Origin: JBFJWU01 sp041623475 [NCBI: bacterium]
GTDB taxonomy: Bacteria; J088
Direction: 5' to 3'
DNA: 8,186 nt
Assembly (NCBI GenBank): GCA_041623475.1
Contig: JBFJWU010000137.1
Location: forward strand, 1 to 8,186
Both the position numbers and the translations under genes were made by a program. Shown one piece after another: positions 1 through 8,186 of this stretch (position 1 is its first letter; every line of letters begins with the position of its first letter). The notes under the pieces are model-generated. The model made no database searches. It was not told the DNA's origin and saw only the letters and a list, made by a program, of their open reading frames with translations.

Positions 1-754
1 ACCAGGGCATCGCCGCCCGCGCCATGGCCGGTGATACAAACGGGTCTTCACGGGGGATGATCAGTTGCACCGGGAGCGGACAGGGTCGTTCAGCCGGATT
101 CAGCAGCCGGGGCAGCACGTTGGCGCGATACAATCGAATGCCCTGGATGCCGTCCCGGCGACGTTGTCGACTGTCGCCGGGGCCGTCAGGATGATCTGAA
201 TCCAGACGCTGCAGCAGGCGGGTCCAGCGAGGGGCCAGGACCTGCCAAAGCGCGGCTGAAGCCCAGGGGATGTGCATGCCGGCGATGTACCAAGATCTTG
301 GCAATTGGCGCAGCGATCCGGGAAATTGAGTTCGCGCCCAATGGCCGACGTGGTCCAGGCACGGGCCAGAGATCGACGTAAATGACGCCATGCGCCGCGA
401 GGCATCTGGATCGGTGGCCGCCTGCCACGCCTGGATGCTGCCCCAGTCATGTCCGACAACATGGACAGACGCATCTGGCGATACGTGTTCGATGATCAAT
501 TTCAGGTCCGCTGCGAGCCGCGGCAGCTTGTAATGTCTGGAACTACGCGGTGCCGACGACTGCCCGGCACCACGAACGTCATAGGTCACGACCCTGTAGT
601 TGTCGGCAAGGTCGCGGGCGACACTGTCCCAGACCGTCTGGTTGTCCGGGTAGCCGTGGACCATTACAATTGCCGGTCTGTCTGTGGGGCCGAATATCCG
701 TCCCGACAGCGTTACGCCGTCTGGCGTGTCGACAGCGAATGGTTCGTTCCCCAT
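1..754 (-). CDS. epoxide-hydrolase-like alpha/beta hydrolase, 3' end missing at window edge
   Basis: The frame stays open from the ATG at 754 to the window edge, giving 251 residues without the C-terminus. Visible alpha/beta-hydrolase landmarks are the oxyanion-hole motif HGYPD (residues 33-37), the nucleophile elbow GHDWG (101-105) with Asp103, a lid-type LYRAN segment (208-212) and the acid region PREDPF with Asp237. An aspartate nucleophile in a GHDWG elbow is typical of epoxide hydrolases and haloalkane dehalogenases, which attack the substrate through an aspartyl ester. The catalytic His should lie in the missing part. The ATG shares its first base with the TAA stop of the upstream dehydrogenase (TAATG), so translation is probably coupled. 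The pairing recalls mycobacterial EphD, where a hydrolase of this kind is fused to a short-chain dehydrogenase. The fold is secure; epoxide as substrate is an inference. Confidence 0.88.
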   Translation of the reverse strand, partial: MGNEPFAVDTPDGVTLSGRIFGPTDRPAIVMVHGYPDNQTVWDSVARDLADNYRVVTYDVRGAGQSSAPRSSRHYKLPRLAADLKLIIEHVSPDASVHVVGHDWGSIQAWQAATDPDASRRMASFTSISGPCLDHVGHWARTQFPGSLRQLPRSWYIAGMHIPWASAALWQVLAPRWTRLLQRLDSDHPDGPGDSRQRRRDGIQGIRLYRANVLPRLLNPAERPCPLPVQLIIPREDPFVSPAMARAAMPW

Positions 755-1584
755 TATCCGGCGATCTTGCCGTACAGGCCGCTTTTGTAAAAGCTGCCGA
801 CCTGTTTGAAATACAATCCCGGGTGCAGTCGCTTTGTTGCCCAGCTCAGTTTGCCGTCCTTCTGGGGGATGCTGTACAGTCGGCCCCGCTCCAGGTCTTG
901 CAGCGCAGTCGTTGCAACCTGCTGAACCGTCATGGACGACCGTTTGAAGAACCACTCGGCCATTGCCCGCTGGCGATCGTGACTGGACCGAAACGAATCC
1001 ATCAGATTGGTCTGGAAAAATGTTGGACACAGGGCCGTCACGGTAATGCCGTGCGCACCAAGCTCGGTCGCCAGCGTTTCGGACAGGGAAATAACGCCGG
1101 CTTTGGTCACATTGTAAGGGCCCATTTCCGGCAGTGACGCGATTCCGGCATTGGACGCGACGTTCAGGATCCAGCCCCTGCCGGCCTGTTTCATGGCTGG
1201 CGCAAAATGATGGCAGCCATGGACGACACCCCACAGGTTGATCTGCATTATCCATTTCCAGTCCTTTAGAGAAATATCACCGACCGTGCCGCCGACGGCG
1301 ACGCCGGCGTTATTGACCAGCAGGTCCGTCCCACCCCAGAGGCGTGTCATCTGGCGTGTCGCGTTGAGAACATCGGCTGACTTTCCGACATCGCAGGAGA
1401 TGAACTCGGCAATGGCACCTGCCTGCCGGGCCAGTTCGACTGTTTCCTGGCCCTGTTGCGGATCGATGTCGCCGATCAGCAGGCGGGCCCGCCGCCGAGC
1501 CAGTTGCAGCGCCAGTTCGCGACCCAGCCCGCTGCCGCCACCTGTAATAAATGTCCGGGGTTGCACCGGCAATTTCTGTTTCAT
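754..1584 (-). CDS. short-chain dehydrogenase/reductase (SDR)
   Basis: A 276-residue classical SDR. It has the Rossmann motif TGGGSGLG (residues 14-21), Asp39 at the end of the second strand (usually a sign of NAD(H) preference), NNAG (91-94) and the catalytic tetrad Asn116, Ser144, Tyr157 and Lys161 (YNVTK). The extension beyond about residue 190, with aromatic residues near the end, is typical of SDRs acting on bulky or hydrophobic substrates. The ATG at 1584 has an AGGAGG ribosome binding site six bases upstream (1591-1596). It is the first gene of the leftward unit and overlaps the next gene by one base. Its likely role is to interconvert an alcohol and a ketone or aldehyde, supplying or removing the carbonyl used by the monooxygenase encoded on the other side of the shared promoter region. 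It could equally act on the product of the partner hydrolase. Confidence 0.92.
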   Translation of the reverse strand: MKQKLPVQPRTFITGGGSGLGRELALQLARRRARLLIGDIDPQQGQETVELARQAGAIAEFISCDVGKSADVLNATRQMTRLWGGTDLLVNNAGVAVGGTVGDISLKDWKWIMQINLWGVVHGCHHFAPAMKQAGRGWILNVASNAGIASLPEMGPYNVTKAGVISLSETLATELGAHGITVTALCPTFFQTNLMDSFRSSHDRQRAMAEWFFKRSSMTVQQVATTALQDLERGRLYSIPQKDGKLSWATKRLHPGLYFKQVGSFYKSGLYGKIAG

Positions 1585-1620
1585 TCCTGGCCTCCTGTGT
1601 GTCAGCCGATGTTCGCGAAC

Positions 1621-1649
1621 TTGACATTATCCAATGTCACAGTCATGAT
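1621..1649 (+). promoter_or_regulatory. predicted sigma70 promoter for the monooxygenase operon
   Basis: TTGACA at 1621-1626 matches the -35 consensus exactly. After a 17-base spacer comes CATGAT at 1644-1649, which matches the -10 consensus at four of six positions. Transcription would start near 1656, leaving a leader of about 50 bases before the ATG at 1706. Confidence 0.5.
1622..1639. promoter_or_regulatory. perfect inverted repeat, putative operator 1
   Basis: TGACATT and AATGTCA form perfect 7-base arms around a 4-base spacer (ATCC). The repeat overlaps the -35 hexamer of the rightward promoter (1621-1626) and the predicted start of the leftward transcript. Its length and symmetry suit a dimeric repressor such as a TetR-family protein; that identity is inferred, and no regulator gene lies in the window. 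Confidence 0.6.
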
Positions 1650-1673
1650 AGAGACATTGACGCACGACGTCAA
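1645..1673 (-). promoter_or_regulatory. predicted sigma70 promoter for the SDR-hydrolase operon
   Basis: On the minus strand TTGACG (1673-1668) is followed after exactly 17 bases by TATCAT (1650-1645). Each hexamer matches consensus at five of six positions. The -10 overlaps the -10 of the rightward promoter on the other strand, so two polymerases could not occupy both promoters at once. Confidence 0.5.
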
Positions 1674-1674
1674 T
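1656..1674. promoter_or_regulatory. perfect inverted repeat, putative operator 2
   Basis: ATTGACG and CGTCAAT form perfect 7-base arms around a 5-base spacer (CACGA). The right arm supplies the -35 hexamer of the leftward promoter. The repeat shares the outward TTGAC...GTCA pattern with operator 1 but has different inner bases. The two centres are about 34 bp apart. They could bind one regulator with different affinity or two regulators. Confidence 0.55.
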
Positions 1675-1705
1675 TCAGGATTTGCAATTTCTCAGGAGGC
1701 TCACG

Positions 1706-2581
1706 ATGGGTAAATCAGTTACGGCATCCTTTCCGGTACGCAACGTTGAATTTGATATCGATGAATCAATTCCCAAATACTGGCATAACAATCGCCGCGC
1801 GGTCACGATTTTCTTCAACAACCTGTCGACGCTGTTTCCCGAAGGCGAGGAGTTCTTCATCAAGAGCCTGGTTGCCTATCGCTCGCAACTGGATGACGAT
1901 CAGCTCAAGGCCGAGATCAAGGCTTTTACCGGCCAGGAAGGCATGCATACGCGGGAACACATTCGTTACAACAACATGCTCAAGGCGCAGGGATATGATG
2001 TCGATCGAATGGAGCGCAGCGTCAAGCGCCTGTTGGTGCGGGTCCATCGACGGTTGAGCAAGCGCGGGCAGTTGATGGTGAGTGCGGCCCTCGAGCACTG
2101 GACGGCCATGTTGGCGCACTATGTCCTGTCTGATGATTCGGTCCTGGAGGGTGCGCACCCGGTGATGGCCGGGATCTGGCGCTGGCACGCGGCCGAAGAG
2201 CAGGAGCACAAGGCCGTGACGTTCGATGTCTACGAACGGGTGGGCGGTAACTATCCGGAACGTGCTGTGATTTATACTGCGGCGTCCTTTGGCTTGTGGC
2301 TCAAGGTCTTCCAGCAGCAATTCGATATGATGCGGCAGGACGGAATCGCCTTTAACCTGCGGGAATGGGCCGACCTGGTGCGGTTCCTGTTCGTCGAACA
2401 GCGAATTGTCCAGCGATTGGGGCCGATTGTCCTGGAGTATTTTGATCCCGGATTTCACCCCTGGCATATCGAAGACAGCCACCTGTTGGAAAAGTGGAAA
2501 CTGGATTACGAGACCAATCCGGTATACAAGAAACGTGTAAAGCAGCAACCCAAGGTTCGTATCGTCCCGGCACCGGCCTGA
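1706..2581 (+). CDS. predicted metal-dependent hydrolase (PF10118/COG3687-like), ferritin-like metal site
   Basis: A 291-residue, mostly helical protein that I assign to the PF10118 'predicted metal-dependent hydrolase' family by resemblance. Possible metal ligands are Glu48/Glu49, E78xxH81, Glu130, and E165xxH168 within WHAAEEQEH. This E...ExxH...E...ExxH spacing over four helices resembles the diiron site of ferritin-like oxidases and desaturases, so the 'hydrolase' label may be misleading. The ATG at 1706 is preferred over an in-frame TTG at 1682 because AGGAGG (1694-1699) sits six bases before it and the TTG would place that site inside the gene. It is the first gene of the rightward operon, 31 bases before the monooxygenase. 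Proteins of this family often lie beside SDRs and flavin monooxygenases. The reaction is unknown. Confidence 0.85.
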   Translation: MGKSVTASFPVRNVEFDIDESIPKYWHNNRRAVTIFFNNLSTLFPEGEEFFIKSLVAYRSQLDDDQLKAEIKAFTGQEGMHTREHIRYNNMLKAQGYDVDRMERSVKRLLVRVHRRLSKRGQLMVSAALEHWTAMLAHYVLSDDSVLEGAHPVMAGIWRWHAAEEQEHKAVTFDVYERVGGNYPERAVIYTAASFGLWLKVFQQQFDMMRQDGIAFNLREWADLVRFLFVEQRIVQRLGPIVLEYFDPGFHPWHIEDSHLLEKWKLDYETNPVYKKRVKQQPKVRIVPAPA

Positions 2582-2612
2582 TTGACACGAACAAGATAAA
2601 GGAAGAAATCCA

Positions 2613-4103
2613 ATGGCAGACGAATACCTGGATGTTGTCGTTGTCGGAGCGGGAATTTCCGGCATCTGTGCCGGTTATCACCTGCTTAATGACTGTCCGG
2701 ACAAGACGTTCGCGATCCTGGAAGCCCGCGATGTCATTGGCGGGACGTGGGACCTGTTTCGGTATCCCGGGATTCGCTCTGACTCGGATATGTTCACCCT
2801 GGGATTTCCGTTCCGGCCGTGGACAGACAGCAAGAGTATTGCAGATGGCGGTGATATTCTGCGCTATGTTCAGGATACTGCAGCCGAATTCGGGATCGAC
2901 CAGAAGATCCGTTATCGCCACAAAGTGACGGGCGCTTCCTGGTCCAGCGAGGACGCCTGTTGGACGCTGTCGGTACGCAGTGGCCGCAAGACCAGCACAA
3001 TTCGTTGCGGCTTTGTCATAATGTGCAGCGGATACTATCGCTACGATCGGGCCTACACGCCCGATTTCCCCGGCATTGACAAGTTCTCCGGTACGGTGAT
3101 CCATCCGCAGTTCTGGCCCGAGGACCTGGACTATGCAGGTAAATCTGTGGTCGTGATCGGCAGTGGCGCAACAGCCATGACCCTGGTGCCAGCCATGTCC
3201 CGCGATGCCGGGCACGTCACCATGCTGCAGCGTTCGCCGACATACGTCGTATCGATGCCGGACCAGGATCCGGTTGCCGGCCTGCTGGGCAAATACCTGG
3301 ACAAGGATACGACATTTCGGCTGGCACGCTGGAAAAATGTCCTGTCGCATATGTTTTTCTATGAACTGTCCCGTCGCCAGCCCGACCTGGTGAAACGCCT
3401 GATCAGGGCCGGGCTGCGGCAACAGTTGGGGCCGGATTTTGACATCGACCGGCATTTCACGCCCAGTTACAACCCGTGGGACCAGCGGGTCTGCCTGGTT
3501 CCCAATGCCGACCTGTTCCGGGCAATCCGCCGGGGCGATATATCGGTTGTCACGGATCATATCGAGCGATTTACCAAGACGGGCATCCGCCTGAGATCCG
3601 GTGAGCTCCTGAAGGCCGATATTGTTATTACAGCGACCGGATTGGAATTGCTGCCGGCCGGCGGGGTGACCCTGAATGTGGACGGAACGGCCCGCAAGAT
3701 TGCGGACTCTATGTCCTATCGCGGTGTGATGCTCAGCGAGTTACCGAATTGTGCCAATGTCCTGGGCTACACAAACGCATCCTGGACACTGAAGGCAGAC
3801 CTGTCGTGCGGATACATCTGCGAACTGTTGAATCATATGGACCGCAAAGGGTACGACGTCGTCACACCGGTCAATGATGACCCCGAAATCACCGATGTGC
3901 CGCTGTTGAACCTGGATGCCGGTTATATCCGGCGCCACCAGGACCAGTTTCCCCGCCAGGGGTCCCGTAAACCCTGGAAGTTGTACCAGAACTACCTGAT
4001 GGACCTGGTGTCGCTAAAGCGCAATCGGTTTGACGATGGGGCGCTTCGGTTCAGCCGTCGCCCCGGCCAGCGCAGTCGGCAGCATCTTCGTGTTGTCGGC
4101 TGA
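2613..4103 (+). CDS. flavin-containing Baeyer-Villiger-type monooxygenase, EthA/AlmA family
   Basis: A 496-residue class B flavoprotein monooxygenase. It has the FAD-binding GAGISG (residues 12-17), a GGTWDLFRYPGIRSDSD block (43-59), the Baeyer-Villiger fingerprint FxGxxxHxxxWP (158-169) and the NADPH-binding GSGATA (183-188). Its length and sequence track, from memory, both mycobacterial EthA (ketone monooxygenase, ethionamide activator) and Acinetobacter AlmA (linked to long-chain alkane use), with EthA appearing closer. The enzyme would use NADPH and O2 to insert oxygen next to a carbonyl, giving an ester. AAAGGAAG (2598-2605) provides the ribosome binding site. The stop TGA overlaps the next gene's ATG by one base (TGATG), coupling it to an esterase-like hydrolase, which supports ester formation followed by cleavage. 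The family is firm; I give no symbol because the sequence alone does not separate EthA-like from AlmA-like function. Confidence 0.93.
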   Translation: MADEYLDVVVVGAGISGICAGYHLLNDCPDKTFAILEARDVIGGTWDLFRYPGIRSDSDMFTLGFPFRPWTDSKSIADGGDILRYVQDTAAEFGIDQKIRYRHKVTGASWSSEDACWTLSVRSGRKTSTIRCGFVIMCSGYYRYDRAYTPDFPGIDKFSGTVIHPQFWPEDLDYAGKSVVVIGSGATAMTLVPAMSRDAGHVTMLQRSPTYVVSMPDQDPVAGLLGKYLDKDTTFRLARWKNVLSHMFFYELSRRQPDLVKRLIRAGLRQQLGPDFDIDRHFTPSYNPWDQRVCLVPNADLFRAIRRGDISVVTDHIERFTKTGIRLRSGELLKADIVITATGLELLPAGGVTLNVDGTARKIADSMSYRGVMLSELPNCANVLGYTNASWTLKADLSCGYICELLNHMDRKGYDVVTPVNDDPEITDVPLLNLDAGYIRRHQDQFPRQGSRKPWKLYQNYLMDLVSLKRNRFDDGALRFSRRPGQRSRQHLRVVG

Positions 4104-5080
4104 TGAAAGTCGCTGAATCGCTGCCGGATTCGGCTCCACCAGAGCAGATTTTTCTGCAGCAGCTGGCGCCGGCCTACCTTGCGGCAGCACCACACCCGTG
4201 CCCCCGGCGCGTTGCGGCCTGGCGCTATGCGGGCCTGGCACCTGCGATCAGTCGGCTGCATCGCAACGTGACCGGATTCAGGATACGCAAGGACGGGGGG
4301 CGTGGTGAGCGACTGGTCTGGCTGGAGGGCGGTATGCCCGGCGACGATGTCGTTCTGCTGCACGGATTCGGTTCATTCAAGGAAAACTGGATTCCGCTGT
4401 TGCCGTTTCTTCGCGGCCGACACCGGATTGTTGCCCTGGATCTGCCGGGCTGGGGGCAGAGCCACTTTGATCACCGACAGTCATACGGGCTGGATATTCA
4501 GATTGATCGCGTTGCAAACTGGATCGAACAGCACTTCACCAATCCTGTCCATCTGGTCGGCAGTTCGATGGGCGGTGGACTCGCTGGACTGCTGGCCGCC
4601 CGGTATCCGGAACAAGTCCGTTCGTTGACGCTAATGAACGCCATGGGAATGCCCGGTGCCAACGAGTCACCGTATATACGGGACCTGGCCAGGGGCGAAA
4701 ACGGGCTGTTGCCGTTTCGGTCGGCGGATGTTGTCCGCATGATGAGACAGGTGGTTGCGCGGCGTTCGATTGCGACAGCTCTTGTGCCGGTTATGCACCG
4801 GGAATTGCTCAGCCGAAGACACGTTAACGCCCATTTGTTTCATCAATTGTTAACGGCGCCGCCCGATTTTTCGCTGGCGAATTTTGGCGACATTCGTCGA
4901 CCGACCCTGGTGTTGTGGGGACGGCAGGACCGGGTTCTGGATGTCAGCAGTGCTGGCACGTTTGCCAGCCGGATCCCGCGCAGCCAGGTTCAAATCCTGA
5001 ACGGCATCGGGCATCTGCCTATGGTCGAGGCACCACTGGCGACCGCGAGGATTCTGCACCGATTCTGGGCAGGCAGTTGA
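4103..5080 (+). CDS. alpha/beta hydrolase with Ser-Asp-His triad, probable esterase
   Basis: A 325-residue alpha/beta hydrolase. The first 80 or so residues are an N-terminal extension before the oxyanion motif LHGFGS (86-91). The nucleophile elbow is GSSMG (153-157) with Ser155; Asp276 (WGRQD) and His304 (GIGH) complete the triad. The cap lies between about 185 and 255. There is no signal peptide, so it is probably cytoplasmic or membrane-associated. It starts inside the stop codon of the monooxygenase gene (TGATG) and has no clear ribosome binding site of its own, so it likely depends on translational coupling. The context suggests it hydrolyses the ester made by the monooxygenase to an alcohol and an acid. 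A C-C hydrolase or lipase-like role remains possible. The gene ends six bases from a convergent small gene. Confidence 0.9.
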   Translation: MKVAESLPDSAPPEQIFLQQLAPAYLAAAPHPCPRRVAAWRYAGLAPAISRLHRNVTGFRIRKDGGRGERLVWLEGGMPGDDVVLLHGFGSFKENWIPLLPFLRGRHRIVALDLPGWGQSHFDHRQSYGLDIQIDRVANWIEQHFTNPVHLVGSSMGGGLAGLLAARYPEQVRSLTLMNAMGMPGANESPYIRDLARGENGLLPFRSADVVRMMRQVVARRSIATALVPVMHRELLSRRHVNAHLFHQLLTAPPDFSLANFGDIRRPTLVLWGRQDRVLDVSSAGTFASRIPRSQVQILNGIGHLPMVEAPLATARILHRFWAGS

Positions 5081-5086
5081 CGCGGT

Positions 5087-5254
5087 TTATTTTCGATCGT
5101 CGGCGATGATTCGCACTGGCAATCCGCTGAATCGGAACATTGGCCCGATATCGACGATCCTGCAATCCGTAACCGGCGCTGCCGCCGTCGAATCCTTGAT
5201 CCACATCCCGACCAGCATTCCGCACAATACGGCAACGACAAGACTCTGTTTCAC
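5087..5254 (-). CDS. small membrane or exported protein of unknown function (55 aa)
   Basis: The GTG at 5254 is preceded by AGGGAGG (5260-5266) at a five-base spacing, which is why I choose it over an in-frame TTG at 5272. The product begins with one Lys followed by a hydrophobic stretch (about residues 4-19, SLVVAVLCGMLVGMWI), then KDSTAAAPV, which could be a signal-peptidase site. The remaining tail of about 28 residues is polar. It could be a short secreted peptide or a single-pass inner-membrane protein. The tail has one Cys (TDCRIVD). It converges with the upstream hydrolase gene and lies downstream of tpm on the same strand. I do not recognise the family. The strong ribosome binding site and signal-like start are the main arguments that it is real. 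Confidence 0.55.
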   Translation of the reverse strand: MKQSLVVAVLCGMLVGMWIKDSTAAAPVTDCRIVDIGPMFRFSGLPVRIIADDRK

Positions 5255-5269
5255 CTGAACCTCCCTGTT

Positions 5270-5297
5270 CAATGGTACGGTTCTAAACCTACCATTG
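5270..5297. repeat. inverted repeat next to the small gene's ribosome binding site
   Basis: CAATGGTA (5270-5277) and TACCATTG (5290-5297) are perfect 8-base arms around a 12-base spacer. On the minus strand the repeat lies between the tpm stop and the small gene, ending only four bases before the AGGGAG ribosome binding site. It could be an operator, or an RNA hairpin affecting translation or processing of the small gene. No T-run follows, so it is not a standard intrinsic terminator. Confidence 0.5.
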
Positions 5298-5316
5298 GCC
5301 GTGGCTTTTGTGCGAT

Positions 5317-5964
5317 TCAGGTGCCTGTTTTGCGTGCCAGATGCCAGACGCTGGCCACAGCATCGACCTGGCCCTTCAGGCCGCCCTCGACATCGGACTG
5401 CTCCAGCAGGTGCATCTGATACTCGGTGGCGTAGTATTCGGTGACTTCGGCATTGGGCACGGAAAATGGCGGACCCGGCATCAACGCCTGATCGTACGCA
5501 AACGTAATCAGCAACTGGGGTGCCGCCTGCGAAAGCCGGACCAGATGCGCGGCATATCGGCGCCGTACATTCGGCGGCAGGGCGACCAATGCTGCCCGAT
5601 CATAGATTGCATCAACCGGCCCCAGGATGTCACCAGTCAAGTCAAAAATGTCGCCGACAAAGATGTCGATATCGTCTGCGTAAAACCGTTTCACCGGACC
5701 GAGGTCCTCGATTCCGGGCGTCAGTCCTGATTCCGCAAAAAATTGTTCAACTGCCAGCGGGCTGAGCTCGGCGCCGGCGACGCGAACGCCGTGGCCAAGC
5801 AACCAGTGGATGTCCAGTGACTTGCCACACAGCGGTACAAATACGCGATCGCCAGCCGACAGCCCCAGGCATGAAAAATGAGCGACCAGCTTTGGGTTGG
5901 GGGTGTCCCGATGAAAACCGATCTGGTTGTCCTGCCAGCGCTGGTGCCAGAATTCCGGTTTCAT
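5317..5964 (-). CDS. tpm: thiopurine S-methyltransferase
   Basis: A 215-residue class I SAM-dependent methyltransferase of the bacterial thiopurine methyltransferase family, close to the usual length of about 216-218. It shows the family's start FWHQRWQDNQIGFH (residues 5-18), a SAM-binding VPLCGKS (43-49) followed by GAELS (64-68), GDIFDL (104-109), YDRAALVALP (121-130) and GPPFSV (164-169). In Pseudomonas and relatives the enzyme methylates selenium and tellurium oxyanions and is linked to tellurite resistance; thiopurines are the assay substrate. It acts in the cytoplasm. AAGGAG lies seven bases before the ATG, and the upstream membrane-protein gene ends only 11 bases away, so the two are probably cotranscribed. 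The family is very likely; the natural substrate here is not shown by the sequence. Confidence 0.93.
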   Translation of the reverse strand: MKPEFWHQRWQDNQIGFHRDTPNPKLVAHFSCLGLSAGDRVFVPLCGKSLDIHWLLGHGVRVAGAELSPLAVEQFFAESGLTPGIEDLGPVKRFYADDIDIFVGDIFDLTGDILGPVDAIYDRAALVALPPNVRRRYAAHLVRLSQAAPQLLITFAYDQALMPGPPFSVPNAEVTEYYATEYQMHLLEQSDVEGGLKGQVDAVASVWHLARKTGT

Positions 5965-5975
5965 AAAAAAGCTCC

Positions 5976-6524
5976 TTACTTTGCACCGCCAGGCGCGGAT
6001 TGCGACAGCGGGTCTTCAAAAAGCAGGTTGTCCAAAGGGTAATAGGACAAGGTTGCAAAACAGACTAACGACACGACCATTACTGTAATCGCCAGAAACC
6101 GGCTGCCGGCTGTACCCGGAAAATTGAGAACGCGGATCGCCAGCAGTTCGCCGGTCAATATCGCGACGATGAAGATTCCAATATCCAATGCGAGCACATT
6201 TGATCCAGTGAATGCGAGATAGGTGTAGAACGCCACTGGAATCAAGATTGGCGGGACAAGCCAACGGATTGCCGTCGCCTCGAGCCAATTAGGCGGCCGC
6301 CCGGCCAAGCGGACGTGGATTGGAGTTGTCAGCACGGCTGGCCAGAATGCCATTTTCAGATGTTCCCACGTGCTTTCATTGGTGGCGGCGAAAAACGCAA
6401 CGATTGCGTTTCGCCCACTCCAGTCCCAGGCAAAATGCAGGACGGACCCCAGTGACGAAACAGCGAATGCCATTAGCAACGCGACCGGTATTCGATTCGT
6501 TCCATTGCGCACACCGGTCATCAT
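5976..6524 (-). CDS. multi-pass membrane protein, DUF6512-like
   Basis: A predicted 182-residue integral membrane protein with about five hydrophobic segments (near residues 12-31, 57-72, 87-106, 112-132 and 141-161). The motif HFAWDWSGRNAIVAFF followed by NESTWEH (49-55) and the C-terminal LFEDP resemble, from memory, the uncharacterised DUF6512 family. The charged motif between the first two segments probably carries the conserved function, which is unknown. The start is uncertain: I use the ATG at 6524 (an ATGATG pair); an in-frame TTG at 6548 would add eight residues, and neither has a convincing ribosome binding site. The stop is 11 bases before tpm, so they likely form an operon. It is divergent from the lipoprotein gene at 6632. 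Confidence 0.8.
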   Translation of the reverse strand: MMTGVRNGTNRIPVALLMAFAVSSLGSVLHFAWDWSGRNAIVAFFAATNESTWEHLKMAFWPAVLTTPIHVRLAGRPPNWLEATAIRWLVPPILIPVAFYTYLAFTGSNVLALDIGIFIVAILTGELLAIRVLNFPGTAGSRFLAITVMVVSLVCFATLSYYPLDNLLFEDPLSQSAPGGAK

Positions 6525-6556
6525 CGGGTAACCCGGGCAGCCCGGCAAACGCCGCG

Positions 6557-6586
6557 TGGACAGTCACGTAAAATTGCGACTATGCT
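6557..6586 (+). promoter_or_regulatory. predicted sigma70 promoter of the lipoprotein gene
   Basis: TGGACA (6557-6562) matches the -35 consensus at five of six positions and is followed after 18 bases by TATGCT (6581-6586), four of six for the -10. Transcription would start near 6593, about 40 bases before the ATG at 6632. An AGGAAAGG ribosome binding site lies close before the start codon. Confidence 0.5.
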
Positions 6587-6631
6587 GGTGGCTTAACCCG
6601 ACACCCGTTTACAGAAAGGAAAGGTTTCTTA

Positions 6632-7672
6632 ATGAAAATCAAAAACACGGGAATATTGGTATTGGCCATGGCGGTAATGACGGTCCAGGGCTGCGGCGAT
6701 ACACTGGCCGGGCTGGCCAGTGGCATCAAGGAACTGGGAATCGATGAACAGGCAACGATCCCGGACAGTGAAAAAGCGAATGAAACATTCGAGTCCGTCT
6801 TTCCCCAGGTACAGGATGCCGTCGGGCAGGCCTTGTCCCAGGGAATGTCTGCCGCCGGTGGAATGAAGCCCCAGCAGGCGGCTGGCAACCAAAGCTTTGA
6901 CATTGACGAAACGATCAGCGAGGACGGCGCAACGATGACGGTCAAAGGGACCGTCAATATCAGCGCCACACCCGCCGGTGCCCTGTCCCAGGAGCAGGAC
7001 CTGCGGGTCACGTGGAGCGGAATCAAGGCAACTGTCGACGGATCCGACCTGGACACATCCGGAAAGGTTGTTTTGTCCGGTTCGCTCGAGATCGGTACCG
7101 ACCAGTCAATTACGGGAACGTTCGAACAGATTGGCCAGATTACCGTCGGTGGCGAAACATTCGGATTTGATATCGTCACCACGTTTTCCGGTACCAAAAT
7201 TACGATCACCGGGACGATCAACGGCGAAACGACCGAAACGACGATCGACCTGGCGGAAGCGGGACAGAGTTCCGGGTCCGACGGCAGTTCCAACGGTACA
7301 ACGGACACGACTGACGGTGATGACAGCAGCGTGACCAAAGTCACCCTGGGCGTTTACACGGACAACGGTGATGGCACCTACAACGATACCGGCAAAGACC
7401 TGGTGATCGAGGTCGGTGTCGAGTGCTTTACGTGGACCCGCACGGCGCAGGCCGATTCAACGGTATCCACCTCGCACGACCACTACAACGCAGCGGATGA
7501 TTCGTCTTACGTGGATGGCGTGGTGACTTGGACCGAATACGGGCCGGAACATTCCCAGTCCGATATTGACGCGACGTGTGCCGCCGGTACCGGTGGGGCA
7601 ACCAAGACCGCTGACAGTACCTCGTATACGCAGGACAAGAACTTTTACCTGAAGATCAAAAGCGTCGAGTAA
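6632..7672 (+). CDS. uncharacterised two-part lipoprotein (346 aa)
   Basis: It begins with a signal peptide (MKIKN, then the hydrophobic TGILVLAMAVMTV) and a lipobox ending VQGC, so Cys21 would be lipidated after signal peptidase II cleavage; Gln at -2 is unusual but acceptable. Residues 22-85 look helical and alanine-rich. Residues 90-208 are a run of Thr/Gly-rich strands (repeated TVKGTV, ITGTFEQIG, ITITGTI patterns), suggesting a beta-sheet domain. A low-complexity Ser/Gly/Asp/Thr linker (about 211-233) leads to a second domain (235-346) with an Asp-rich DNGDGTYND (244-252) that could bind calcium, and two cysteines (265, 316) that could form a disulfide. The lipid anchor and disulfide fit an envelope protein. 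The gene has its own promoter and terminator. I do not recognise a family, and no enzymatic motif is visible. Confidence 0.85.
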   Translation: MKIKNTGILVLAMAVMTVQGCGDTLAGLASGIKELGIDEQATIPDSEKANETFESVFPQVQDAVGQALSQGMSAAGGMKPQQAAGNQSFDIDETISEDGATMTVKGTVNISATPAGALSQEQDLRVTWSGIKATVDGSDLDTSGKVVLSGSLEIGTDQSITGTFEQIGQITVGGETFGFDIVTTFSGTKITITGTINGETTETTIDLAEAGQSSGSDGSSNGTTDTTDGDDSSVTKVTLGVYTDNGDGTYNDTGKDLVIEVGVECFTWTRTAQADSTVSTSHDHYNAADDSSYVDGVVTWTEYGPEHSQSDIDATCAAGTGGATKTADSTSYTQDKNFYLKIKSVE

Positions 7673-7700
7673 CGAATTGATCCAGATTGTGAGCTGAACG

Positions 7701-7735
7701 GGCCGGCAGGCATTTCGCTTGCCGGCCTTTTTTTT
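7701..7735 (+). terminator. intrinsic terminator after the lipoprotein gene
   Basis: GGCCGGCAGGC (7701-7711) pairs with GCTTGCCGGCC (7717-7727), an 11-base-pair stem with one G-U pair and a 5-base ATTTC loop, followed directly by eight T residues (7728-7735). It lies 28 bases after the lipoprotein stop codon. Confidence 0.93.
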
Positions 7736-7756
7736 CCCTGAATACCGCAACGGGAC

Positions 7757-7774
7757 GCGCAGTGTACCCTGCGC
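7757..7774. repeat. short inverted repeat in the intergenic region
   Basis: GCGCAG (7757-7762) and CTGCGC (7769-7774) flank a 6-base spacer. It lies downstream of the tRNA fragment on the minus strand and may be what is left of the tRNA gene's 3' hairpin. There is no T-run, so I do not call it a terminator. Confidence 0.35.
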
Positions 7775-7811
7775 TGCCGGTCTCGAAAAACCTGTTGACG
7801 TAGTCCAGAAA

Positions 7812-7857
7812 TGGTAGGCGGTGAGGGGATCGAACCCTCGACCCGCTGATTAAGAGT
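7812..7857 (-). tRNA. 3' fragment of a tRNA gene, probably tRNA-Lys(CTT); putative attachment site
   Basis: Read on the minus strand, every tRNA element from the anticodon loop onward is present with standard lengths: anticodon loop CTCTTAA (7856-7850, anticodon CTT), 3' anticodon-stem strand TCAGC, variable loop GGGTC, T-arm GAGGG-TTCGATC-CCCTC, 3' acceptor strand ACCGCCT, discriminator A and an encoded CCA (7814-7812). The 5' side is absent: the bases before the loop (ACGAA) pair with only two of the five stem positions, and no D-arm or 5' acceptor strand (expected AGGCGGT) follows. A clean break at the anticodon loop is typical of a tRNA 3' end copied by tyrosine-recombinase integration. 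It is not a functional tRNA on its own. Confidence 0.85.
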
Positions 7858-8044
7858 TCGTATCAGACGTTTTCCATCGGTGTCCATAGTTGCCCACAGG
7901 CGCGCATTCTATGGGCATTTAGCTCGATGCCATATTCCAGCACTGTGTACAGATTCCCAATGTTTTCCACCCTATTGGGTACAGTTAGGGTACAGAAACG
8001 ACTAGTATAGGAATTAGTGCTGATAATTGGGGCGGACCACCAAT
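7858..8044. mobile_element. non-coding end of a putative integrated element
   Basis: This stretch shows no convincing gene on either strand. Two lines counted by hand (7921-8040) have about 45-47% GC, clearly below the flanking genes. It begins exactly where the tRNA fragment loses its match and holds several short direct repeats. In the usual arrangement the sequence on the anticodon side of such a fragment belongs to the element, and the sequence on the CCA side (to the left) to the chromosome. No integrase is visible in the window; it would be expected near the other end or further right. Confidence 0.5.
7977..7995 (+). repeat. tandem direct repeats, putative recombinase arm sites
   Basis: GGGTACAG occurs at 7977-7984 and 7988-7995, an 11-base period of about one helical turn. 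A shorter copy, TGTACAG, lies at 7946-7952. Tandem sites at this spacing beside a tRNA-derived core resemble the arm-type binding sites of tyrosine integrases or excisionase sites. This role is inferred. Confidence 0.5.
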
Positions 8045-8186
8045 ATGCCTGTTTGTACGTACAAAAAGAAATTTTCGTTGGCCACATTTCCTAGGCGGCA
8101 TTTTTTGGACCTTTTGGGGTCTGTATGGGCGTTGCTTTTTGCAGTGAGCTTTCAGGCTGGCTGCGCGACGATAACTACTGGAATAC
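8045..8186 (+). CDS. lipoprotein precursor, 5' part only (runs off the window)
   Basis: The frame from the ATG at 8045 is open to the window edge (47 codons). It encodes a basic N-region with KKK and RR, a hydrophobic stretch LLGSVWALLFAVSF, then QAGC followed by ATITTG. The AGC matches the end of a lipobox, and GCATITTG is a start I associate with small proteobacterial lipoproteins that have a PEGA-like domain. The start is uncertain: the 39-residue leader is long, and a TTG at 8105, with AGGCGG six bases before it, would give a shorter leader lacking positive charge. It lies on the putative element side of the tRNA fragment, so it may be element cargo. Confidence 0.55.
   Translation, partial: MPVCTYKKKFSLATFPRRHFLDLLGSVWALLFAVSFQAGCATITTGI

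Follow-up and report, generated by a model that had tools for sequence, protein, structure and literature searches.

The window analysed here, a stretch of 8,186 nucleotides, carries near its right end the second half of a tRNA gene, which raises the question of how the gene came to be broken at this point and what lies on either side of the break. The half gene occupies 46 bases on the minus strand (7812–7857) and corresponds to the 3′ part of a tRNA-Lys(CTT) gene, from nucleotides 31/32 to 76, which we interpret as a displaced tDNA fragment. Read from 7857 down to 7812, it consists of a single A, the anticodon loop CTCTTAA with the anticodon CTT (7850–7856), the 3′ anticodon strand TCAGC, the variable loop GGGTC, the T stem and loop (GAGGG, TTCGATC and CCCTC; 7823–7839), in which the 5-bp stem is perfect, and finally the 3′ acceptor strand ACCGCCT, the discriminator A and an encoded CCA (7812–7822). 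A previous sequence-only reading of this DNA had described tRNA parts running from the anticodon loop to CCA, with tRNA character lost within the anticodon stem, and our analysis confirmed this description. Nucleotides 27–31 read ACGAA, whereas pairing with nucleotides 39–43 (TCAGC) needs GCTGA, so that A31 is the only one of the five that fits. The length of 46 bases given in that reading was likewise borne out, although the fragment ends at 7857 and not, as had been stated, at 7860.

We searched the window with a generic pattern of the tRNA-Lys 3′ half, allowing up to three mismatches, and obtained a single match (7812–7856), which contained none. The same loose pattern matched 0 of 200 dinucleotide shuffles of the window, which argues against chance similarity. 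No complete tRNA was found in the window by ARAGORN. When a generic 5′ half of tRNA-Lys was aligned to the 45 bases upstream of the fragment, no similarity was detectable, as 1,887 of 2,000 shuffles scored as high. tRNA pseudogenes exist, and a decayed one, with no mobile element involved, would be one way to account for an incomplete gene; however, a perfect 3′ half next to an undetectable 5′ half is unlike gradual decay, and we give this explanation, together with that of chance similarity, almost no credence. Searches against Rfam returned nothing at E ≤ 1 for the whole window. For a 201-base stretch they returned no tRNA match, the hits being a tmRNA T-arm (8.2 bits, E 0.13) and, on the other strand, a plastid 3′ UTR family (13.3 bits, E 3.2), each far under the gathering score. 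Given that Rfam yielded no tRNA match, the tRNA identity of the fragment rests on the pattern and on intact relatives rather than on a covariance-model score. Among ten ORFs scanned for Pfam domains, no domain-bearing ORF reaches 7812–7857; the ORFs that cross the fragment encode 51–87 amino acids and lay outside the scan.

The position of the break also brings an intron into consideration. Group I type tRNA introns sit in the anticodon loop, where this break falls, and an intron of this type would place the 5′ exon past the end of the window. Against this, the absence of any Rfam family at E ≤ 1 extends to group I introns, with 329 bases of the relevant side visible. The strand formed by nucleotides 27–31 is missing as well, which would put the splice site at 31/32, an unusual position for tRNA introns, and the same architecture elsewhere is accompanied by integrases in many cases. 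We therefore regard an intron as extremely improbable.

A 3′ fragment that loses its tRNA character on the anticodon side places the inserted element on that side, which here is to the right of 7857, and the host on the CCA side, to the left. The GC content is 0.578 for positions 1–7811 and 0.468 for the presumed element side (7858–8186), which has no similarity to a tRNA 5′ half. No 329-base stretch on the left has a GC content as low as that of 7858–8186, in a comparison in which the left-hand stretches overlap each other and the right side is mostly free of long ORFs. Neither the 329 bases to the right of the fragment nor the rest of the window yielded an integrase-like ORF, though one could start past the window end. 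The right side contains the start of an ORF (8045–8186, plus strand, cut by the window end) with what by eye is a lipoprotein-like signal sequence, possibly part of the cargo of the element; neither Pfam nor the phage and plasmid records gave a match to it.

The left side, by its Pfam matches, carries metabolic genes: hydrolases, an SDR, a PF10118 protein, a flavin monooxygenase, a TPMT and a DUF6512 protein. Positions 2–5080 hold a divergent cluster, with an alpha/beta hydrolase and the SDR on the minus strand (Pfam) and a PF10118 metal-dependent hydrolase, a flavin-binding (Baeyer–Villiger-like) monooxygenase and a second alpha/beta hydrolase on the plus strand; it resembles clusters for ketone or lipid oxidation. 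The gene that adjoins the scar on the presumed host side (6632–7672, plus strand) encodes a 346-amino-acid protein with an N terminus that by eye is lipoprotein-like. Pfam gave no match for this protein, and neither viral contigs nor genome contigs contained a relative. A search of 369 genomes sampled from the class to which G001 (the genome of locus L002) belongs gave none either, a result that is uninformative without a genome known to match. An inverted repeat (7701–7727) follows the 346-amino-acid gene, and between this repeat and the tRNA fragment there is a perfect 6-bp hairpin, GCGCAG-TGTACC-CTGCGC (7757–7774), inside which a TGTACCC motif (7763–7769) begins. For the TPMT, there were 119 relatives in genome contigs (the best 80 of 119 at 49–60% identity; several phyla), the highest identity, 60%, being in G001, and the best match of the flavin monooxygenase among the 369 genomes (58%) was in G001 as well. 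On this basis the source organism is probably gammaproteobacterium-like, although TPMT relatives in several phyla make the placement tentative. A tblastn comparison of nine window proteins with 20 stretches around other tRNA-Lys places revealed no shared neighbours; it returned only weak family matches of the SDR and a hydrolase, all in L153. DNA comparison of both flanks with the collected loci gave nothing convincing, the best E value of 0.061 falling at a short repeat.

These flanks bear on a second reading, in which the whole stretch is a free plasmid-like or conjugative integrative element and the half tRNA is its attP site, both sides of which would be included in the window. Such an element would likewise carry half a tRNA with unrelated DNA on the anticodon side, the TGTACCC motif is also present to the left of the fragment, and the half copies that we found in viral contigs (see below) may include attP sites. 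By contrast, the 7.8 kb on the left consist of metabolic genes (hydrolases, SDR, flavin monooxygenase and TPMT) with no integrase-like ORF, and the left and right sides differ in GC content. We consider this reading very unlikely.

The explanation that we favour, and that we hold to be highly probable, is that the fragment is the host-side (attR type) end of a mobile element, either a prophage or a genomic island, that has entered a tRNA-Lys(CTT) gene. Recombination between attP of the element and attB, carried out by a tyrosine integrase, would have taken place inside the seven-base anticodon loop. With the element would have come a second 3′ half, which would have restored a functional tRNA at the far end; the original one would have been displaced to the near end and left there as a dead 46-base fragment. 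The crossover would fall within CTCTTAA (7850–7856, minus strand), the putative strand-exchange region; in three other genomes, identity between half and intact copies starts 0, 5 and 6 bases 5′ of this loop. According to the available text on Islander, islands integrated in tRNA genes are bounded by an intact tDNA and a displaced fragment, which mark the two ends; its 3,919 candidates comprise 3,760 with a 3′ fragment and 159 with a 5′ fragment, and 2,083 are at the anticodon site (PMC4383910). Judged by Islander's criteria, the fragment in the window reaches the 3′ end of the tRNA gene (CCA), lies outside any full-length tRNA gene (0 tRNAs by ARAGORN and an undetectable 5′ half) and has its boundary at nucleotide 31/32, a known tRNA subsite (the anticodon loop). 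Fragments of tDNA, attR sites included, are described in the accessible part of another study as a common product of mobile-element integration that is often misannotated as tRNA genes (PMC9897764).

The sequence-only reading had proposed an integration boundary here, with a mobile element to the right and host chromosome to the left, and our results support this proposal in part. In its favour, the fragment has the matching polarity and breaks off exactly at the anticodon loop, GC content drops at the junction, no integrase-like ORF was found to the CCA side, and there are precedents both among viral contigs and in other genomes. That an element lies on the right is presumed, as are the kind of element, the integrase it would carry and the restored tRNA.

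Half copies of tRNA-Lys(CTT) that are cut at the anticodon loop occur in many viral contigs and in several genomes from the same class as G001. The 369 genomes sampled belong to this class, which we take to be Gammaproteobacteria. A generic Lys 3′ half (up to two mismatches) was present in 107 of the 369, and a reversed control pattern gave 0 matches. ARAGORN scans of 30 of these places identified 26 intact tRNA-Lys(CTT) genes, three tRNA-Lys(TTT) genes and one place without a tRNA (L116, in G046). The intact tRNA-Lys(CTT) gene is preceded by tRNA-His(GTG) in 24 of the 26 loci, and tRNA-Leu(TAG) lies further downstream in 13. The window's own 45-base segment, with up to three mismatches allowed, was absent from all 16 TPMT-locus genomes and from all 85 genomes compared in the order to which G001 belongs, suggesting that the source organism is not closely represented among them.

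In three genomes, half and intact copies share identity that starts 0 (G168), 5 (G126) or 6 (G046) bases 5′ of loop position 32 and reaches the 3′ end of the gene or further. The half copies in G046 and G168 are on a different contig from the intact gene, and in both genomes the intact gene is followed immediately, at its CCA end, by a PF00589 integrase (L143:8314–9462 and L148:9135–10160, respectively). Both integrases were seeds of our integrase profile, and the independent evidence for them is their Pfam match. In G168, the two copies remain similar beyond the CCA end of the gene, offset by one base, so that more than one element may be involved in this case. The half and intact copies in G126 are 1.4 kb apart (L144:8700–10112), and a tRNA-Leu follows the half copy, as it does in 13 of the 26 intact loci. 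The single scanned ORF of this 1.4-kb insertion (185 amino acids) had no Pfam match, and the insertion has no integrase-like ORF. In G182, a half tRNA-Lys with one changed anticodon-loop base (CGCTTAATC) is found 1.8 kb from the intact gene (L150:8639 to 10424), and the interval contains a RhuM-family ORF and no integrase-like ORF. Of the 20 stretches taken around other tRNA-Lys places, 2 contained an integrase-like ORF, which indicates that a half copy is not always accompanied by a visible integrase.

The short intervals in G126 and G182 raise the possibility that the element in the window has been lost or rearranged, leaving the tRNA fragment and a foreign stub as a relic, with no intact partner and integrase at a far end. 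Short remnants do occur, as these two cases illustrate (1.4 kb and 1.8 kb, both devoid of an integrase-like ORF), and the 329 bases visible on the right side of our fragment lack such an ORF too. However, the fragment itself shows no decay: T stem, loop and CCA are all perfect, pointing to an event in the fairly recent past. We think a relic quite unlikely, and retain the end of an inserted prophage or island as the preferred reading.

In viral contigs, the Lys(CTT) segment pattern was found in at least 100 stretches, at least four contigs giving two stretches each. The 5′ half was missing in 85 of the 100 stretches listed, as judged by a D-arm motif test that could misplace odd tRNAs. These 85 half copies carry the anticodon loop without a D-arm motif and represent 78 distinct contexts; one of them (L195) starts at the end of its stretch, so that its 5′ side is unseen. 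We detected an integrase-like ORF within 3 kb of 62 of the 85 half copies; in 40 cases the ORF is on the CCA side and in 22 on the anticodon side. The profile used for this was made from four Pfam-confirmed integrases together with the top-scoring hits, at most 40, in these viral loci. Among the 23 half copies that had no integrase-like ORF, 19 have less than 1.5 kb of sequence on at least one side. Full-length viral copies were also near an integrase-like ORF in 5 of 15 cases. Control loci yielded an integrase-like ORF in 0 of 80 cases, a comparison that, as all 80 loci are chromosomal, tests specificity and not the phage background.

The exact 45-base segment was present in no viral contig. 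Matches to the segment were found in 319 phage records, with identities of 76.8–93.3% among the 20 matches listed, and in 17 plasmid records, where the matches listed are at the tRNA segment. Two Mycobacterium phages, Keshu and prophiGD43A-1, match the 46-base segment with 82.6% and 84.8% identity, and each has a tyrosine integrase on the anticodon side, separated from the segment by 155 and 133 bases, respectively. The expectation, set out in the sequence-only reading, that an integrase gene would adjoin the intact tRNA holds in two other genomes (G046 and G168), but in the two phages the integrase is on the opposite side of the core. Because the integrase follows the CCA end in the genomes but is on the anticodon side in the phages, it could be located at either end of the element.

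Two further viral matches were rejected. The only viral match to the window's P-side core (L258) continues as unrelated sequence without the tRNA segment, and the match of L259 to a 25-base piece from the CCA side is an intact tRNA-Val(TAC) gene and irrelevant here. L259 is a viral contig of 110,675 bases, in which an 8,459-base stretch encodes 18 tRNAs. A 27-mer from the right flank had no match in viral contigs.

To the right of the fragment, three copies of CTGTAC(C/A)C on the minus strand are weak candidates for integrase arm-type sites. CTGTACCC is found at 7988–7995 and 7977–7984, and CTGTACAC at 7945–7952, about 90–140 bases from the loop. The tandem CTGTACCC was absent from all 5,000 shuffles, and some 8-mer repeated at an equally close distance in 310 of 5,000, so the direct repeat alone is unremarkable. 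Tandem CTGTACCC in viral contigs had a tRNA T-loop motif within 600 bases in 4 of 15 loci (L128, L131, L132 and L136). An integrase-like ORF was present in 4 of the 15 (L125, L128, L129 and L131), the one in L129 being far from the motif. In L128 and L136 the orientation of the motif relative to the tRNA is opposite to that in the window, and a GTACCC motif was within 300 bases of few of the 85 viral half copies. The association of tandem CTGTACCC with tRNA T-loop motifs is only suggestive, and our reading of the scar does not draw on these repeats as arm sites.

An intact tRNA-Lys(CTT) gene at the other end of the element, as the favoured explanation would have it, is likely but not certain. 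We assume restoration of the tRNA here on the general rule given in the available Islander text (PMC4383910). The far-end gene is not certain because some phages with attB sites in tRNA-Lys genes, in the part of the report available, do not rebuild the tRNA (PMC10865867). In this form of lysogeny, termed tRNA-dependent, phages with a short core disrupt the tRNA-Lys gene, leave it broken and supply a copy of their own, and the accessible part of the phage table contains 13 phages that rebuild the tRNA and 8 that do not, which reflects the authors' choice of phages and gives no base rate (PMC10865867). We see only a slim chance that the element to the right of our fragment is of this kind, that is, one that shares a short core, does not rebuild the tRNA and supplies its own tRNA-Lys(CTT) by the tRNA-dependent integration known from actinobacteriophages, in this case with a gammaproteobacterium-like host. 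As the fragment is host DNA whether or not the gene is rebuilt, it cannot by itself tell restoration from tRNA-dependent integration.

The locus is an ordinary new instance of well-described anticodon-loop integration, a textbook phenomenon rather than a new kind of feature. Its analysis locates one edge of a probable mobile element with single-base precision and indicates the side on which the rest should be sought. The half and intact pairs in G046, G168 and G126 have the same break point as the window to within 0–6 bases; their flanks differ from those of the window, and the intact partner is seen in those genomes, whereas here it would lie beyond the window. Keshu and prophiGD43A-1 contain a tRNA segment of 46 bases that corresponds to the one in the window; they differ in their hosts and in having an integrase 155 and 133 bases away, compared with none within 329 bases here. 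The mycobacteriophages Hammy, Aminay, DS6A and RonRayGun, listed in the available part of the phage study under the tRNA-Lys(CTT) site attB-2, use the same kind of tRNA gene as the scar in the window, in different hosts (PMC10865867). Compared with the islands in Islander, as far as its available text describes them, our case differs in that the element with its integrase, and likewise the intact tRNA partner, would lie outside the window. Consistent with the anticodon-loop islands in that text, the window has a 3′ fragment that runs from the loop to CCA, its anticodon side facing the foreign DNA and its CCA side the host (PMC4383910).
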